Part shown: positions 956 to 10,311 of the stretch, piece after piece
How the letters are laid out: each line of letters opens with the position of its first letter
How positions within the stretch are numbered: position 1 is the stretch's first letter
Source of the DNA: Solirubrobacteraceae bacterium
Lineage (GTDB): Bacteria > Actinomycetota > Thermoleophilia > Solirubrobacterales > Solirubrobacteraceae
Reading direction: 5' to 3'
Assembly (NCBI GenBank): GCA_017882405.1
Contig: JADGPO010000102.1
Coordinates: 1 to 33,411, forward strand
DNA: 33,411 nt
Made by a program: the position numbers and the translations under genes
Notes under the pieces: model-generated
What the model saw: only the letters and a program-made list of their open reading frames with translations
The model's database searches: none
What the model was told of the DNA's origin: nothing

Positions 956-3336
<2,381 letters not shown>

Positions 3337-3340
<4 letters not shown>

Positions 3341-4266
3341 CAGAACGGGTCACCGGTGAGGAATTGGATCCCGCCCACCCGATCCGCCACCTCGTCCCCG
3401 ACGTGGAGACGCTCGCCCAGCGGCTGGCCTCCGTCGACTACCTGGTCGACGAGGGGCTGGCCACCGCGATCTTCCTCAGCCTGCGCCTGCCCCAGCCGCT
3501 GCTGCTGGAGGGGGAGGCGGGAGTCGGCAAGACGGAGGCCGGCAAGGCACTGGCGCGGGTGCTCGACACTCCGCTGGTGCGCCTGCAGTGCTACGAGGGA
3601 ATCGATGCCGCCGAGGCGCTGTACGAGTGGAACTACGCCCGCCAGCTGCTGTCGATCCGCTTGGCCGACAGCCACGGGGATGCGCTGTCCGAGGATGACC
3701 TGTTCGGCCCGGACTACCTGACGGCACGGCCGCTGCTGCGCGCCCTGCAGCATCCCGGACCGCGTCCCGCGGTGCTGCTGATCGACGAGATCGACCGGGC
3801 CGACGACGACTTCGAGGCGTTCCTGCTGGAGCTGCTCGCCGAGGCGACGGTCACGATCCCCGAGATCGGCACGATCACGGCCACCTATCCACCGGTGATC
3901 GTGCTCACCTCCAATCGCACCCGCGACCTGCACGACGCCGTCAAGCGCCGCTGCCTGTATCAGTGGATCGACTACCCGAGCGCCGAGCGCGAGGTGGAGA
4001 TCATCCGCCGCCGCGTTCCCCGCGCGGCAGCCACGCTGGCCGTCCAGGTGGCCGACGCCGTGTCGTCGATGCGCGCTTCGGACATCCAGAAGCCGCCCGG
4101 AATCGCCGAGGCGATCGACTGGCTGGCGGCGCTGGACCTGCTGGGGATCGCGGAGCTGGACGAGCCCGCCGTGCAGCGCACGCTGGGCTCCGTGCTCAAG
4201 TACCGCGAGGACCAGGACGTCGTCCGGGCCGCCGGCCTGGCCACGCTGCCGCCAGAGGGTGCCTGA
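3337..4266 (+). CDS. coxD: CoxD-type AAA+ ATPase (MoxR family)
   Basis: This is a 309-aa MoxR-type AAA+ ATPase. In Oligotropha, CoxD is a membrane-associated ATPase needed to build the [CuSMoO2] cluster in apo-CO dehydrogenase. Walker A is GEAGVGKT at residues 59-66 and Walker B is VLLIDE at about 146-151, followed by a sensor region with LTSNRTRDLHDAVKRRCLY. The ATG at 3337 overlaps the coxL stop (ATGA), which fixes the start and implies translational coupling. It is followed immediately by a VWA-domain gene, the usual CoxD-CoxE partner pair. Order and domain content support coxD over a generic MoxR. The maturation role is taken from the known family and is not shown by this sequence. Confidence 0.93.
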
Positions 4267-4270
4267 CCCG

Positions 4271-5644
4271 ATGGCCGACTTTCGCGTCCGCACCGTTGTG
4301 CTCGACCTGCCGCCGCTGGTCGGGGCGTTCGCCCGTCGGCTGCACGCCGCGGGCGTGCCGGTGAGCGCCGAGCGCGCCGCCCGCCTGGCCGAGGCGCTCG
4401 CCCTCGTGCGACCGGTCGCCCGCCGCCGGCTGTACTGGACGGCCCGCTCGGTGCTGGTGTCCGAGCAGTCACAGGTGAAAGCGTTCGACGCCGTGTTCGC
4501 CGAGATCTTCGGGTCGGGCACCGCGCCCGAGATCCTCATCGAGGATGTGCGCCAGGTACCGGCGCAGCCCGATGAGCGCCCACCCTCGCAGCGCGAGCTC
4601 GACGCCGACGCCTCTCCCGACGAGTGGTCGGCGGGTGGCACGCCGGCGCCCTCGCGCGAGCCCGGCGCCACGTTGGAGGCACGCGAGCTGCCGGTGCCGA
4701 CTGTCGCCTCCGACGAGGAGGTGCTGCGCGCCAAGCGCTTCGACGCGCTGGAGCCCGACGAGCTGGCCGCCCTGTACGCGCTCATGAGCCGGCTGTCCTT
4801 GGCCACCCCGCGACGACAGACGCGACGATACGAGCGCGGGCGCCACGGTGCGCGCGTCGATCTGCGGCGCACGCTGCGCGGGAGCCTGCGAACCGGATCA
4901 GAGCCGATCCGCCTGGCTCGCCGGCGACGGCGCTCAGAGCGCCGGCGGATGGTGCTGCTGTGCGACATCTCGGGCTCGATGGAGCCCTACGCGCGTGCCT
5001 ATCTGCAGTTCCTCACCTGCGCGGCGGCGAGTAGCGGAGCCCACCCACCCAACGAGGCGTTCGTGTTCGCCACCCGCCTGACCCGGCTGACGCGGGCGCT
5101 GCGATCGCGGCGCCCCGAGCGGGCGATCGCCCAGGCGGCCCGCACCGCCCCGGACTGGTCCAGCGGCACGCGGATCGGCGAGGCCCTGAAGGCGTTCAAC
5201 GACCGCCACGGCCGGCGGGGAATGGCTCGCGGCGCGGTGGTGGTGATCCTGTCCGACGGCTGGGAGCGAGGTGACCCGGGGCTCGTGGGTCGCGAGATGG
5301 AGCGTCTGGCTCGCCTGGCCTATCGGATCGTGTGGGTCAACCCGCGCGCGGCCGCCAGCGGCTTCGCTCCACGGGCCGGCGGGATGGCAGCGGCGCTGCC
5401 GCACTGTGACGCGCTCGTCTCGGGCCACAGCCTGGGGGCGCTGGACGAGGTCGTGGAGGCGATCGGCGCGGAGCGTGGAGACGATCGCGCCCCGGAAACC
5501 ACGTGGCGTCCGCCCGAGCCCGAACCCCTGCCGGCGCAGGACTCGTGGGCGAGTGCCACTCCGGTACCCGGCAGCTCGGTGGCGATGCCCTCCGGCTACG
5601 GCCCCAGCCGCGGGCGCACGACGCCCGGATGGAGCCTCGGATGA
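4271..5644 (+). CDS. coxE: CoxE-type VWA-domain protein
   Basis: This 457-aa protein has a variable N-terminal half rich in acidic, Pro and Ala residues, and a C-terminal von Willebrand A domain. The metal-binding MIDAS motif DISGSM starts at D232, and a later SDGWERGD segment contains D329. CoxE acts with the CoxD ATPase in the late step that inserts copper and sulfur at the molybdenum site. The chosen ATG at 4271 lies 4 nt after the coxD stop. An alternative GTG at 4259, overlapping the coxD stop, would add four residues and cannot be excluded. The C-terminal tail after the VWA domain (about residues 415-457) is Pro/Gly/Ser-rich and low in complexity. The stop overlaps the next gene by ATGA. 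Confidence 0.92.
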   Translation: MADFRVRTVVLDLPPLVGAFARRLHAAGVPVSAERAARLAEALALVRPVARRRLYWTARSVLVSEQSQVKAFDAVFAEIFGSGTAPEILIEDVRQVPAQPDERPPSQRELDADASPDEWSAGGTPAPSREPGATLEARELPVPTVASDEEVLRAKRFDALEPDELAALYALMSRLSLATPRRQTRRYERGRHGARVDLRRTLRGSLRTGSEPIRLARRRRRSERRRMVLLCDISGSMEPYARAYLQFLTCAAASSGAHPPNEAFVFATRLTRLTRALRSRRPERAIAQAARTAPDWSSGTRIGEALKAFNDRHGRRGMARGAVVVILSDGWERGDPGLVGREMERLARLAYRIVWVNPRAAASGFAPRAGGMAAALPHCDALVSGHSLGALDEVVEAIGAERGDDRAPETTWRPPEPEPLPAQDSWASATPVPGSSVAMPSGYGPSRGRTTPGWSLG

Positions 5645-5823
5645 GCTCCGGCACCCGTTCGGTCAAGTTGTGCATCTATCCGGGCTGCGATCGCCCGGCC
5701 GTGGCGCCGCACCTGCTGGGCGGGCCCCAGCCCAGCTTCTGCGACCTGGAGCAGCACAACGTGCTCACCGCCCATCAGGAGCGCCAGCGCCTGGCGCAGT
5801 CAGACAACGAGGAAGGGGAGTGA
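5641..5823 (+). CDS. Small Cys/His protein in the cox cluster
   Basis: This 60-aa protein is not recognised. Its ATG overlaps the coxE stop (ATGA), and it ends 2 nt before the next gene, so it is placed as a genuine member of the operon. It contains CIYPGC (C11, C16) and later FCDLEQH (C34, H39), a C-x4-C...C-x4-H pattern that could bind one zinc or another metal ion. The tail is charged and acidic (DNEEGE). No signal peptide or membrane segment is visible. In this context it may help metal delivery or maturation of the [MoSCu] enzyme, but that is inference only. The reading frame is supported by perfect stop-start packing on both sides. Confidence 0.72.
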   Translation: MSSGTRSVKLCIYPGCDRPAVAPHLLGGPQPSFCDLEQHNVLTAHQERQRLAQSDNEEGE

Positions 5824-5825
5824 CG

Positions 5826-6281
5826 ATGGCCAACGAGGCCTATCGCGCGGTGTTCCTGCGCATTCACCCGACGGGCAAGATGGTGCTCAGCCTGACCACC
5901 GAGCCCGACGGTCACGAGGCCGACTACGCCGGCCAGGTGGCCGACCAGCTCGGCGTGCCGGCGCTCGACGTCAAGGTCGTGCCGGCCGACACCGACCGAT
6001 TCGGAAACGGCCACGGCTACAACACCACTCCTTCGTCCGGCACCCAGGAGGCGATCACTTCGGCGACCGGCAAGATCCTGGCCAAGGCGCAGCTGCTGGC
6101 CGGCGTGGTGCTCGACAGCCCGCCCGACAGCGTGAAGTGGTCAGACGGCGCGTTCGCCACGGCCGAGGATCCCGGCGACGGCAAGACGATCGCCGCCCTC
6201 GCGATGTACGCCCACGGGACCGGAGCGCTGCCGCCGGGCGTGGAGGGCGGGCTGGATGCCCAGACCGTCTACCGAGACTGA
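5826..6281 (+). CDS. Stand-alone relative of a CoxL internal segment
   Basis: This 151-aa protein aligns along nearly its whole length with residues about 487-635 of the CoxL encoded at 956-3340. Shared landmarks are R-x-HP-x-GK near the N-terminus, a GHE segment, a GDTD/ADTD segment, and an end reading GVEGGLDAQTVY beside GMEGGLDGQVIY in CoxL. The cofactor-binding stretch QTQGQGHE of CoxL has become TTEPDGHE, and the TYGSRSTPVSG loop has become GYNTTPSSGTQ. The AYxCSFR loop and the catalytic Glu segment are absent, so it cannot be a CO dehydrogenase by itself. It has its own strong ribosome binding site (GGAAGGGGAG, 5811-5820) and ATG, so it looks maintained, not debris. Function is unknown; a scaffold or assembly role is a guess. 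Confidence 0.82.
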   Translation: MANEAYRAVFLRIHPTGKMVLSLTTEPDGHEADYAGQVADQLGVPALDVKVVPADTDRFGNGHGYNTTPSSGTQEAITSATGKILAKAQLLAGVVLDSPPDSVKWSDGAFATAEDPGDGKTIAALAMYAHGTGALPPGVEGGLDAQTVYRD

Positions 6282-6306: not shown

Positions 6307-6738
6307 ATGGTTGAGCTTGATCACGCGTTTGAGACCAGCAAGCCGATCGACGACAGCTGGGGGCTGGTGCTCGATCTCGAGCGCCTGGTGCCCTGCGTGG
6401 AGGGCGGCAGCGTGCTGGAGAAGACCGACGACGAGAGCGTCAAGGCCGAGATCAAGGTCAAGATGGGCGCGATGTCGATGAAGTTCAAGGGGACGGTCGA
6501 GGTGGTCGAGTCCGATCCCGAGAGCCACAGCGCACTGCTGCGCGTCAAGGCCCGCGAGGCCGGCGGCCAGGGCCACGCCAACGCCGACGTGACGTTCACG
6601 CTGGCCAACGGCGGGGGCAACATCCACACCGCGGCGCAGATCACCGGCAAGGCGGCATCGATGGGCGAGGGCATGGTCTCCACGGTGCTGGAGGCGCTGA
6701 TCAAGGACTTCGCCGAGAAGTTCGTGGCGGCCGCCTGA
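6307..6738 (+). CDS. coxG: CoxG, SRPBCC-fold CO dehydrogenase accessory protein
   Basis: This is a 143-aa CoxG family protein with the SRPBCC (START-like) hydrophobic-pocket fold. Recognised segments are an N-terminal LDHAFETSKPIDDSWGLVLD helix region, a central VKMGAMSMKFKGTVEVVE strand pair, and a C-terminal long helix ending EALIKDFAEKFVAAA. CoxG proteins link CO dehydrogenase to the membrane, and recent work on mycobacterial CoxG supports quinone delivery to the enzyme. The protein lacks the long C-terminal membrane-binding extension of some CoxG proteins. A near-perfect ribosome binding site AAAGGAGG at 6293-6300, 6 nt before ATG, is the strongest in the cluster, which suggests the product is needed in quantity. 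Confidence 0.93.
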   Translation: MVELDHAFETSKPIDDSWGLVLDLERLVPCVEGGSVLEKTDDESVKAEIKVKMGAMSMKFKGTVEVVESDPESHSALLRVKAREAGGQGHANADVTFTLANGGGNIHTAAQITGKAASMGEGMVSTVLEALIKDFAEKFVAAA

Positions 6739-6749
6739 GGTATCTGGAC

Positions 6750-7025
6750 ATGGTCGTCCGCCCAATGCGCGCCGTGGAACCCGGCGAGGTGCCGCTCGAC
6801 GGCGGCACCGCCGTGCAGGAGCAGCCCGACCGCCCGGTGTTCAAGGGCAACGGGGAGTACGACTACGTGTGCGTGGAGTGCGGCAGCCTGCTGGCGGCGG
6901 GGATGGACCCGCAGCTCATGACCCGGCGCGTGCGGATCCGCTGCGGCCGCTGCCGGACGGTCAACATCGCGGCCGAGCTGGCGGTGCAGGGCGCCCGCCG
7001 CAGCCGGGAGCCACGGTCTCCGTGA
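6750..7025 (+). CDS. Zinc-ribbon protein in the cox cluster
   Basis: This 91-aa protein is not recognised by name. It carries two Cys pairs, CVEC (C41, C44) and CGRC (C65, C68), in a classic zinc-ribbon spacing; the residues around the second pair (VRIRCGRCRTVN) resemble rubredoxin/zinc-ribbon knuckles. The N-terminal 35 residues are polar and proline-rich, and the C-terminus is basic (ARRSREPRS). The start is either ATG 6750 or ATG 6765, and both are close to the coxG stop. The last codon overlaps the GTG start of the downstream coxL (GTGA at 7022-7025), so the two are coupled. A role in metal handling or protein assembly is an inference from position. Confidence 0.75.
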   Translation: MVVRPMRAVEPGEVPLDGGTAVQEQPDRPVFKGNGEYDYVCVECGSLLAAGMDPQLMTRRVRIRCGRCRTVNIAAELAVQGARRSREPRSP

Positions 7026-9373
7026 CCGGCGTCGACGTCGGGTTCGGCCGTCTGCGGCGCAAGGAGGACGAGCGCTTCATCCGCGGCCAGGGCCGCTACC
7101 TCGACGACGTGCTGCTCCCGGGGATGCTGCACGGCGCGATGCTGCGCAGCCCCGTCGCCCACGCGCACGTCCTCTCGATCGACACCTCGGCGGCACTCGC
7201 CCATCCCAAGGTGCACGCCGTGATCACCGGCGCCGACCTGGAGGCGCGCGGCTGCGCCTGGATGCCGACGATGTCGGGCGATGTGCAGGCGGTCCTGGCC
7301 ACCGACAAGGTGCGCTTCCAGGGCCAGGAGGTCGCCTTCGTGATCGCCGACGGCCACTACTCGGCTCACGACGCGCTGGAGCTGATCGACGTCGAGTACG
7401 CGCCGCTGGCTCCGGTGGTCGACCCTCGACGGGCACTGGACGAGAACGCGCCGCTGATCCGCGACGATCAGCCGGACCGCTACGACAACCACATCTTCGA
7501 CTGGGAGTCCGGGGACCGCCGGGCGACCGAACGGCTGATCGCCGGCGCCGAGGTGGTCGCCGAGCGGGAGATGGTGTTCCCGAGATCACACCCGGCGCCG
7601 ATGGAGACGTGCGGAGCCGTGGCCGAGCTCGACCGGGTCAGCGGGAAGCTGACGATGTGGTCGACCACCCAGGCGCCGCACGCCCACCGCACGCTGTACG
7701 CGCAGATCCTCGGTCTCTCCGAGCATCGCGTCCGGGTCATCTCTCCCGATGTCGGCGGCGGCTTTGGCAACAAGGTGCCGGTCTATCCAGGCTACGTCTG
7801 CGCCGCGGTCGGGGCGATGACCGTCGGGCGCCCGGTCAAGTGGGTCGAGGATCGCTCCGAGAACCTGATGGCCTCAGGCTTCGCCCGCGACTACGCGATG
7901 CGCGGGCGGATCGCGGCGACGGCCGCCGGGAAGATCCTTGCTGTCGACGTCGACGTACTCGCCGATCACGGCGCGTTCAACACGGCCGCCCAGCCGAGCC
8001 GCTATCCGGCCGGTTTCTTCCACGTCTTTACCGGGTCCTATGACCTGGCCGCGGCCCACTGCCACGTGCGCGGCGTCTACACCAACAAAGCGCCGGGCGG
8101 GGTCGCCTACGCCTGCTCGTTCCGAATCGCCGAGGCCGTCTACCTGATCGAGCGGCTGATCGACGTCCTCGCCCGCGAGCTGGGCGTCGACCCCGCCGAG
8201 TTGCGCTTTCAGAATCTGATCGCGCCCGAGCAATTCCCGTATGAGTGCAAGACCGGCTGGGTGTATGACTCCGGCGACTACGCCACTGCGCTGCGCAAGG
8301 CGCTGGACGTGGCCGGATATGCGGAGCTGCGCGCCGAGCAGGCCGCGAAGCGCCAACGGGGCGAGCTGATGGGCATCGGGATCTCGTTCTTCACCGAGGC
8401 GGTCGGCGCCGGACCGCGCAAGCACATGGACATCATGGGCCTGGGCATGAACGACGGGGCGACACTGCGGATCTCGCCGACCGGCACCGCCCAACTGGGG
8501 ATCAGCGTGCAGACCCAGGGGCAGGGCCACGAGACGACGTTCGCCCAGATCGTCGCCCACGAGCTGGGGATCGCACCCGAGGACGTCGACGTGCTCCACG
8601 GTGACACCGACAACACGCCGTACGGGCTGGGCACCTACGGCTCGCGCTCGACCCCTGTCTCGGGGGCCGCCACGGCACTGGTCGCGCGCAAGGTCCGCGA
8701 CAAGGCCCGGCTGGTGGCCTCGGCAATGCTCGAGGTCTCCGCCGCCGATCTCGACTGGGAGCGCGGGCGTTGGTTCGTCCGCGGCGATCCCGAGCAGGGG
8801 GCCTCGATCTCCGAGATCGCCCGGGCGGCCCGCGGCTCGGTGGAGCTGCCCGCCGGCATGGAGGCCGGGCTTGACTCCGAGACCGTCTATGACCCGCCCA
8901 ATCTCACGTTCCCGTTCGGCGCCTACGTGTGCGTGGTGGATATCGATCCCGGCACGGCGAAGGTGTCGGTGCGGCGCTTCATCGCGGTCGACGACTGCGG
9001 TACGCAGATCAACCCGATGATCGTCGAGGGGCAGGTGCACGGCGGGCTCACCGACGGGGTCGGCATCGCGCTGATGGAGATGGTCGGCTACGACGAGGAG
9101 GGCAACTGCCTGAGCGCCTCGCTGATGGACTACCTGATTCCCACCGCGGTGGAGGTGCCCGAGTGGGAGACCGACTACACCGTCACCCCCTCGCCGCACC
9201 ATCCCCTGGGTGCCAAGGGGATCGGCGAGTCCGCCACCGTGGGCTCGCCGCCGGCGATCGTCAACGCCGTGTGCGACGCGCTCGCCCCCTACGGCGTGCG
9301 CCACGTGGACATGCCGTGCACGCCCGCGCGCGTATGGGACGCTATGCAAGGAAAGGCGGTACCGCCACAATGA
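7022..9373 (+). CDS. coxL: Form I-type CO dehydrogenase large subunit (second copy)
   Basis: This second full-length CoxL (783 aa) is collinear with the first and almost gap-free by eye. Its active-site loop is AYACSFR at residues 362-368, keeping the copper-ligand position (C365) but with Ala in place of the Arg before it. The cofactor stretch QTQGQGHETTFAQ begins at Q497, and the catalytic Glu of GIGE is E736. It begins with GTG 7022, overlapping the zinc-ribbon gene stop, and lacks about ten N-terminal residues found in the first copy. No coxM or coxS accompanies it, so it would have to share those of the upstream copy or have another partner. Its stop overlaps the XdhC gene (ATGA). It could be a paralogue with altered kinetics or another small substrate. 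Confidence 0.93.
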   Translation: MTGVDVGFGRLRRKEDERFIRGQGRYLDDVLLPGMLHGAMLRSPVAHAHVLSIDTSAALAHPKVHAVITGADLEARGCAWMPTMSGDVQAVLATDKVRFQGQEVAFVIADGHYSAHDALELIDVEYAPLAPVVDPRRALDENAPLIRDDQPDRYDNHIFDWESGDRRATERLIAGAEVVAEREMVFPRSHPAPMETCGAVAELDRVSGKLTMWSTTQAPHAHRTLYAQILGLSEHRVRVISPDVGGGFGNKVPVYPGYVCAAVGAMTVGRPVKWVEDRSENLMASGFARDYAMRGRIAATAAGKILAVDVDVLADHGAFNTAAQPSRYPAGFFHVFTGSYDLAAAHCHVRGVYTNKAPGGVAYACSFRIAEAVYLIERLIDVLARELGVDPAELRFQNLIAPEQFPYECKTGWVYDSGDYATALRKALDVAGYAELRAEQAAKRQRGELMGIGISFFTEAVGAGPRKHMDIMGLGMNDGATLRISPTGTAQLGISVQTQGQGHETTFAQIVAHELGIAPEDVDVLHGDTDNTPYGLGTYGSRSTPVSGAATALVARKVRDKARLVASAMLEVSAADLDWERGRWFVRGDPEQGASISEIARAARGSVELPAGMEAGLDSETVYDPPNLTFPFGAYVCVVDIDPGTAKVSVRRFIAVDDCGTQINPMIVEGQVHGGLTDGVGIALMEMVGYDEEGNCLSASLMDYLIPTAVEVPEWETDYTVTPSPHHPLGAKGIGESATVGSPPAIVNAVCDALAPYGVRHVDMPCTPARVWDAMQGKAVPPQ

Positions 9374-10311
9374 TGGCCGTGGAGCAGACCCGGGAGATCG
9401 AGCGACTCGTGGCCGAGCGCCGGCCGTTCGTGGTGGCGACCGTGGTGCGGGCCCGCCGGCCGACCAGCGTGCGTCCCGGTGATGGAGCGATCGTGCTCGG
9501 CGATGGGACGATCGAGGGCTTCGTGGGCGGTGTGTGCGCCGAGTCATCCGTGCGGCTACACGCCCTGCGGGCGCTGGAGACGGGCGACGCGCTGCTGCTG
9601 CGCCTGGTACCCGGTGATGTCGAAGGCGAGGGCGGCCCGGCGGAAATGCTCGAGGGGGCGGTGGTGGAGCACAACCCATGTCTGAGCGGCGGATCGCTGG
9701 AGATCTTCCTGGAGCCCCATCTGCCCGCCAACCGGCTCGTCGTGGTGGGCGGTTCGCCGATCGCACGGGCGCTGGCACAGCTGGCGGCGGCCGCGGACTT
9801 CGACTGCCAGCTGGGCGGCGCCTCCGACGTGGGGGCGCTCGAGGGCGCGGCCGCGGTCGTCGTGGCGTCGCACGGCAGTGGAGAGGAGGCGGTGCTGGCG
9901 GAGGCGCTGGCGGCCGGGGTGCCCTATGTGGCGCTGGTGGCCAGCCCGAAGCGTGGACGAGTCGTACGCTGCGAACTGGCGGTCGCGCCGGAGCTGGCGG
10001 CGCAGCTGCACACGCCCGCGGGTTTCGACATCGGCGCCCGCACGCCGGTGGAGATCGCGATCTCGATCCTCGCCGAGATGGTGGCGGTTCACCACGCCCA
10101 TCCCGGCTTGACGGGTGTGCGTGAGCGCTCGACCACTCCGGAGGTGGAGGTGGTGACCCCGCTGGTCACCGGGGTCGCGGTGGACCCGGTGTGCGGAATG
10201 AAGGTGGCCACCGTAGACGCCACCCCGCACCTGGAGATCGGCGGCGAGACGGTGTGGTTCTGCGGCGAGGGCTGCCGGGCCAGCTACGCGCGCGACCACG
10301 TCGTCAGCTAG
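9370..10311 (+). CDS. XdhC/CoxF-family chaperone with C-terminal YHS domain
   Basis: This 313-aa protein belongs to the XdhC/CoxI/CoxF family, which binds molybdenum cofactor and inserts or sulfurates it in xanthine dehydrogenase-type enzymes. The N-terminal domain (about 8-110) contains the family motif GFVGGVCAESSVR with C56. A Rossmann-like domain follows from about 120 (NRLVVVGGSPIARALAQLAA). Residues 271-307 form a YHS domain (VDPVCGMKV...FCGEGC) with C275, C298 and C302. YHS domains occur in copper and other heavy-metal transport proteins. The fusion therefore joins a molybdenum-cofactor chaperone to a likely metal-binding module, which would suit a Mo-Cu enzyme. The ATG at 9370 overlaps the coxL stop. 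It is the last gene of the cluster. Confidence 0.88.
   Translation: MMAVEQTREIERLVAERRPFVVATVVRARRPTSVRPGDGAIVLGDGTIEGFVGGVCAESSVRLHALRALETGDALLLRLVPGDVEGEGGPAEMLEGAVVEHNPCLSGGSLEIFLEPHLPANRLVVVGGSPIARALAQLAAAADFDCQLGGASDVGALEGAAAVVVASHGSGEEAVLAEALAAGVPYVALVASPKRGRVVRCELAVAPELAAQLHTPAGFDIGARTPVEIAISILAEMVAVHHAHPGLTGVRERSTTPEVEVVTPLVTGVAVDPVCGMKVATVDATPHLEIGGETVWFCGEGCRASYARDHVVS

Follow-up and report, generated by a model that had tools for sequence, protein, structure and literature searches.

Atmospheric CO is oxidised by some aerobic bacteria, which jointly consume about 250 teragrams of it a year (PMC6794299). For the CO dehydrogenase of O. carboxidovorans, the available sections of PMC4240915 describe CoxD and CoxE as maturation factors for the [CuSMoO2] site and report that coxE is essential for CO utilisation. 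CoxE of that organism comprises 399 aa with the VWA domain at the C terminus, and it has been proposed in the same sections to hold CoxF at the membrane for copper insertion. CoxD and CoxE form one of the pairs of MoxR AAA+ and VWA proteins, as do NorQ/NorD and CbbQ/CbbO, and the available portion of PMC9976466 proposes that NorD (VWA) acts as an adaptor between the MoxR AAA+ ring (NorQ) and its target. In the available text, neither PMC9976466 nor PMC4240915 mentions a third MoxR/VWA partner that is copied from a domain of the target enzyme.

In the window, i.e. the whole stretch of 33,411 nucleotides of Solirubrobacteraceae DNA analysed here, a cluster of genes runs in the order coxM (3' part), coxS, coxL1, coxD, coxE, orfX, mini-CoxL, coxG, orfZ, coxL2 and coxF/xdhC-like (Table 1). 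Mini-CoxL, which is conserved in certain soil bacteria, lies in the coxD-coxE part of this cluster and is probably a hitherto undescribed accessory protein involved in the assembly or operation of CO dehydrogenase. Together with a C-terminal extension of CoxE and the small protein orfX, it is rated here as an undescribed accessory module found in clusters for form I CO dehydrogenase. Literature searches among open-licence papers, restricted to top-ranked matches, did not turn up any account of a short or truncated CoxL in such clusters, and none appears in the available text of PMC4735515, PMC13203968, PMC7761526, PMC6794299, PMC4240915 and PMC9976466.

Table 1 Features of the CO dehydrogenase cluster in the window
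Feature	Position	Strand	Basis or remark
coxL1, form I (AYRCSFR), mini-associated lineage	956..3340	+	TIGR02416 1226.7 bits; tree
coxL1 segment homologous to mini-CoxL (CoxL1 residues 492-633)	2429..2854	+	sequence alignment
coxD (AAA+ ATPase)	3337..4266	+	PF07728 and related AAA models
coxE (VWA protein, 457 aa)	4271..5644	+	PF05762, 201.5 bits
Conserved motif in CoxE C-terminal tail (CoxE residues 424-454)	5540..5632	+	predicted disordered region
orfX, 60-aa Cys/His protein, overlaps coxE stop	5641..5823	+	no Pfam or NCBIfam match
Purine-rich stretch (gaggaaggggag) before mini-CoxL, fits ribosome-binding site	5809..5820	+	direct reading
mini-CoxL, free-standing 151-aa paralogue of first half of CoxL MoCoBD_2	5826..6281	+	without cofactor motifs
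coxG	6307..6738	+	PF06240, 59.5 bits
orfZ, small zinc-ribbon-like protein	6750..7025	+	matches below Pfam cut-offs
coxL2, second form I CoxL (AYACSFR)	7022..9373	+	TIGR02416 1276.1 bits; tree
coxF/xdhC-like maturation factor	9370..10311	+	NF045664, 74.6 bits, below cut-off 350

Two full form I CoxL genes of different lineages are present in one operon, and a single coxS/coxM set was found in the window. OrfZ also occurs in many related clusters.

Mini-CoxL, a conserved protein derived from a CoxL subdomain

The mini-CoxL gene runs from an ATG to a TGA codon and starts 2 bases past the stop of the preceding small ORF. A preliminary description had given it a ribosome-binding site of its own, which the purine-rich stretch fits, and had placed it between coxE-side and coxG genes. 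This placement stands, although the gene directly upstream is orfX and not coxE. The collinearity with CoxL noted there was also borne out, with mini-CoxL residues 11-149 aligning to CoxL1 residues 492-633 (window sequences) instead of the approximate 487-635 given earlier. Pfam places the protein in MoCoBD_2 (PF20256; 51.2 bits against a gathering cut-off of 27) as a partial domain covering only profile positions 49-183 of 283. The CoxL model TIGR02416 matches at positions 478-619 of 770 with 86.5 bits, below the curated cut-off of 991. The closest relative of solved structure is CoxL of M. smegmatis (8uem chain A, E 3.9e-27), and this same chain is the top Foldseek match of the AlphaFold2 model (mean pLDDT 82.9; TM 0.82 by query length, E 1.9e-12), in which the MoCoBD_2 fold is predicted to be retained.

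Compared with CoxL (TIGR02416; PDB 8uem, 1n5w), mini-CoxL is homologous and of the same fold, but it represents a single subdomain (CoxL residues ~492-633) without QGQGHE, YGSRSTPVSG or the AYXCSFR active-site loop found in both CoxL1 and CoxL2. XdhC domains gave no match in Pfam or NCBIfam, and by domain the protein is not an XdhC/CoxF chaperone. In nicotinate dehydrogenase, split Mo-subunit chains jointly form one active site. A MoCoBD-type domain is found there on a separate chain (3hrd_B, 330 residues; Foldseek E 3.8e-6), whereas the window encodes both complete CoxL chains and a mini-CoxL that lacks the cofactor motif. One database protein, P0122 (206 aa), is a mini-CoxL with an internal insertion or partial duplication of about 55 residues.

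Mini-CoxL is a genuine, strongly conserved protein. The 121 sequences compared measure 149-153 aa and have long invariant blocks in common, and in a tree of 101 rows (38 mini-CoxL and 63 CoxL segments) the 38 free-standing proteins form one clade (support 100/99), derived from one CoxL alpha/beta subdomain. Under the GY94 model (one ratio shared by every site, fast tree search, 15 to 33 loci per set), dN/dS was 0.075 for mini-CoxL (33 close loci), next to 0.045 for coxD, 0.048 for coxS, 0.062 for orfX, 0.064 for coxG, 0.106 for coxE and 0.120 for yceI. A Nei-Gojobori median omega of 0.527 was disregarded, as its set was mixed with CoxL (57 rows against 33-38) and synonymous sites look saturated under strong GC bias. 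The preliminary description had proposed a maintained gene and named a dN/dS near 1 or a lack of orthologues in other cox clusters as signs of a decaying duplicate. The ratio is far from 1 and orthologues are present at the corresponding place elsewhere, so that maintenance is supported; decay is rejected on the ratio together with the fixed length and the single clade. The broader reading, in which mini-CoxL is a decayed copy or an annotation artefact, i.e. a CoxL fragment, has the naming of many JGI entries as CoxL in its favour, yet it retains virtually no probability, as none of the 17 free-standing matches in 249 Thermoleophilia genomes contains an internal stop and the ratio, clade and length point the same way.

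These names come from the best 120 matches in each of two protein-database searches, whose totals (7604 and 7417) may include CoxL fragments and are not counts of mini-CoxL. Among the matches listed, NCBI names are mostly molybdopterin-dependent oxidoreductase or molybdopterin cofactor-binding domain-containing protein. As many JGI entries label mini-CoxL as CoxL, surveys of coxL by name could miscount.

CoxL1 carries QTQGQGHE at residues 507-514 and PYGLGTYGSRSTPVSG at 543-558, and mini-CoxL has TTEPDGHE (24-31) and DRFGNGHGYN (57-66) at the matching places. Both changes, already pointed out for the window copy, are real and not private to it but family-wide: in the alignment, the QTQGQGHE and YGSRSTPVSG stretches are lost in all 38 mini-CoxL rows and kept in 58 of 63 CoxL rows, the 58 having been picked for QGQGHE and YGSRS, so that invariance within both strings is by selection. 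When the 38 were compared with these 58, residues nearly invariant in CoxL around the cofactor helix and loop were variable, replaced or deleted in mini-CoxL, while fold residues were retained (several glycines and prolines, Trp 105, helix alanines). Other residues are (nearly) invariant and specific to the 38 mini-CoxL proteins, namely R58, F59, G60, H63 and Y128. The start YRAV is likewise invariant or nearly so; the compared CoxL rows are cut before that point, and window CoxL1 reads MNDGADLRV there, with no resemblance. Judging by structures of the xanthine oxidase family, the QTQGQGHE and YGSRSTPVSG stretches of CoxL bind the molybdopterin cofactor. The pattern of changes suggests that the domain no longer binds the cofactor in mini-CoxL and has come under a different constraint, in support of the earlier idea of a repurposed domain.

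Derivation from a cofactor-binding domain might also suggest a carrier or store of molybdopterin cytosine dinucleotide. Such a role is highly improbable, as both cofactor stretches of the subdomain are lost family-wide, the other cofactor-binding parts of CoxL are absent and an XdhC-like protein is already encoded. A copy of a CoxL domain with the predicted CoxL fold could, alternatively, serve as a decoy or assembly regulator that competes with CoxL folding, dimerisation or cofactor loading. However, residues invariant in CoxL round the cofactor helix (HETTFAQI and neighbours) vary in mini-CoxL, which is thus not apparently selected to replace the native CoxL segment, and a regulator-like context was not seen, all of which makes this role very unlikely.

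Co-inheritance with an extended CoxE and orfX

Unlike CoxE of O. carboxidovorans, CoxE in the window continues for about 58 residues after the VWA domain. This tail is predicted to be disordered (pLDDT <50 at residues 405-431 and 435-457, with the last predicted helix ending at 399) and contains the conserved motif WASATPVPGSSVAMPSGYGPSRGRTTPGW. A search with the single tail sequence was weak, hitting 21 of 249 genomes at E<=0.01, many by chance; instead, a profile of 19 rows built from tails of loci with mini-CoxL was used. Genome searches covered 249 genomes of the class Thermoleophilia and 396 of the phylum, with the best 9 to 31 candidates scored per genome. Free-standing mini-CoxL was found in 17 of the 249 class genomes, as 12 strong and five divergent matches (open frames of 153-177 aa), and the tail profile matched the same 17 at E 2.4e-11 or better, the next matches lying near 1e-3. 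Nine further class genomes with CoxL matches at E<=1e-25 had neither. The Fisher p for this co-occurrence, 3.2e-7, is computed as if genomes were independent, which they are not. In the phylum sample, mini-CoxL and the tail occurred in the same four of 396 genomes (an extra tail match at 8.7e-4 was judged noise), and since all four also belong to the class sample, neither was found beyond the class at these thresholds.

At the level of single loci the association is also seen. A contig search returned 32 loci, of which 31 (L001-L031) hold mini-CoxL, all in the order coxE-orfX-mini-CoxL with the three genes running in the same direction; in L032 the tail is present and the contig ends just after orfX, before the position of mini-CoxL. 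After six duplicates (L033-L036, L049, L051) had been dropped, 38 loci with mini-CoxL were used (the window, L001-L031, L037-L041 and L050). The tail is part of CoxE in 36 of them, counting L031 with its shortened tail, and lies in a separate, frameshifted ORF in the remaining two. Among 27 fetched loci without mini-CoxL, 8 show no CoxE, and the profile, itself built from mini-locus tails, found no tail in the 19 that do. Among the clusters compared, the extra tail was thus confined to those with mini-CoxL. A resemblance of the tail to the CoxL loop STPVSGAAVAV was considered as mimicry and rejected: 67 of 500 shuffles reached or exceeded the best local match against whole CoxL1 and 22 of 500 that against the segment alone, and given these results and its absence from divergent tails the likeness is treated as chance.

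Locus labels are mostly Solirubrobacterales, Solirubrobacteraceae, Thermoleophilia or Solirubrobacter, all within the class Thermoleophilia, and records of Solirubrobacter taibaiensis, S. phytolaccae and S. soli contain mini-CoxL. Wider labels were Actinomycetes (L009, L020) and Actinomycetota (L027, L028, L032), and protein P0113 is labelled Pseudonocardiales; going by these labels, whose exactness is uncertain, an occurrence outside Thermoleophilia is not excluded.

The gene between coxE and mini-CoxL, orfX, encodes the conserved pattern CIYPGC...FCDxxxHNxLxAHxER. It was found in 16 of the 17 Thermoleophilia genomes with mini-CoxL and in none of the other 232. Of its 1444 database matches at E<=0.001, those with names among the best 120 are all hypothetical proteins. 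Five divergent clusters have no orfX between coxE and mini-CoxL. In four divergent genomes with mini-CoxL and orfX, the latter lies upstream of coxM, away from mini-CoxL, and in the most basal cluster (L038/G046) it was not detectable.

CoxL1 of clusters with mini-CoxL forms a clade of its own in the 101-row tree (26 rows, support 95/81), and the mini-CoxL and CoxL1 trees agree in their broad branching order: L038 splits off before the group of L037 and L039-L041, which in turn precedes the remaining loci. Mini-CoxL is accordingly inherited with one CoxL1 lineage of Thermoleophilia and with a CoxE that carries the tail; orfX accompanies them in 16 of the 17 genomes sampled. As mini-CoxL, tail and CoxL1 lineage share one origin, their co-occurrence is to be read as one evolutionary event and not many. 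In that case mini-CoxL and the tail might simply have become fixed together in the ancestor of one lineage and have separate functions. This hitchhiking would explain the similar branching by a single event, but the tail motif is conserved across divergence where mini-CoxL proteins share just 46-53% identity, orfX was retained after relocation, and mini-CoxL was retained after inversion in L037; on balance, fixation without a functional link is improbable, though not negligible.

In the same 101-row tree, CoxL2 of the window groups with CoxL of two clusters without mini-CoxL (L043 and L045). CoxL1 of the lineage with mini-CoxL reads NGNQAPN (window 1628-1648). In the 35 other CoxL rows the second residue of this stretch is always Thr, and the third is either Thr or Ser. 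This site lies near the glutamine that contacts Mo, and the change may mark an altered active-site surrounding in CoxL1.

On the other side of mini-CoxL, a coxG match occurs in 34 of the 38 loci, 29 to 2695 bases away in 33 of them and about 7 kb off in L038. A YceI-like gene (PF04264 in L001, L001:8475-9050) lies between mini-CoxL and coxG in 31 of these 34; there is none between them in the window, L019 and L038, and the window lacks any YceI match. In 23 of the 31 loci the YceI-like gene is on the strand opposite to mini-CoxL, so that mini-CoxL and coxG are probably not one transcript there, and mini-CoxL often appears as the last gene of a coxE-side unit, apart from coxG. The frequent neighbourhood of coxG and yceI could nonetheless indicate that mini-CoxL stays with the mature enzyme as a small subunit, or assists its electron transfer, in concert with CoxG and the YceI-like protein on the membrane or quinone side. 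In PMC4240915, CoxG is indeed suggested to recruit CO dehydrogenase to the membrane so that electrons can be transferred. Yet the distance to coxG varies widely, the intervening gene is mostly on the opposite strand, the window keeps mini-CoxL without a YceI match, and 13 of the 27 fetched loci without mini-CoxL have coxG as well, while the one-to-one companion of mini-CoxL is the CoxE tail. A subunit or accessory of this kind is unlikely, though it deserves consideration.

A putative adaptor in CoxD/CoxE maturation

The preliminary description had listed a decoy, a scaffold or an assembly factor as possible roles. That mini-CoxL occurs together with the CoxE tail suggests an involvement in maturation by CoxD and CoxE, which narrows this list toward an assembly factor or adaptor without settling it. 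On the genomic side, mini-CoxL is encoded with coxD and coxE and co-inherited with the tail of CoxE. On this evidence, we consider the chances about even that mini-CoxL, a copied CoxL subdomain that no longer carries the cofactor motifs, now serves as a partner of the CoxE tail during CoxD/CoxE maturation. The more specific version, in which a cofactor-dead subdomain of the client serves as a substrate-derived adaptor and third component of a MoxR AAA+/VWA system, recruited by the new tail and accompanied by orfX, is put forward more tentatively, as falling somewhat short of an even chance.

In such a scheme, the disordered tail of CoxE would hold mini-CoxL through its conserved motif. Mini-CoxL would mimic the cofactor-contacting domain of CoxL without binding cofactor itself; as a docking aid or placeholder, it would help to dock or position the CoxD (AAA+)/CoxE (VWA) machine on apo-CoxL1 during the sulfuration of Mo and the insertion of Cu. 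Perhaps orfX is a third, metal-binding component. CoxL1-specific residues were examined for a docking patch and no clear one was seen.

Several observations count against this tail-partner role. The single origin of mini-CoxL, tail and CoxL1 could reflect hitchhiking, and L031 keeps mini-CoxL although its tail motif lacks the last part (...GSSVPMPYGRVK). OrfX is undetected in L038/G046 and does not lie between coxE and mini-CoxL in the five divergent clusters, mini-CoxL of L037 lies on the strand opposite to coxE, and CoxL2, whose relatives elsewhere lack mini-CoxL, shares the operon in the window. In addition, the available sections of PMC4240915 state that the active site is freely accessible to thiols larger than CO, which is said to challenge a chaperoning of the apo-enzyme by CoxD. 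This free access and the alternative role of CoxE proposed in the same sections weaken the case for a remodelling machine docked on the enzyme.

Missing maturation factors of CO dehydrogenase are named as an open challenge in the available part of the O. carboxidovorans study (PMC4240915). Mini-CoxL, the CoxE tail and orfX provide a defined set of candidates for such factors. If the proposed role is true, Thermoleophilia with this cluster would possess a lineage-specific maturation module of CO dehydrogenase with an adaptor derived from its own substrate enzyme.
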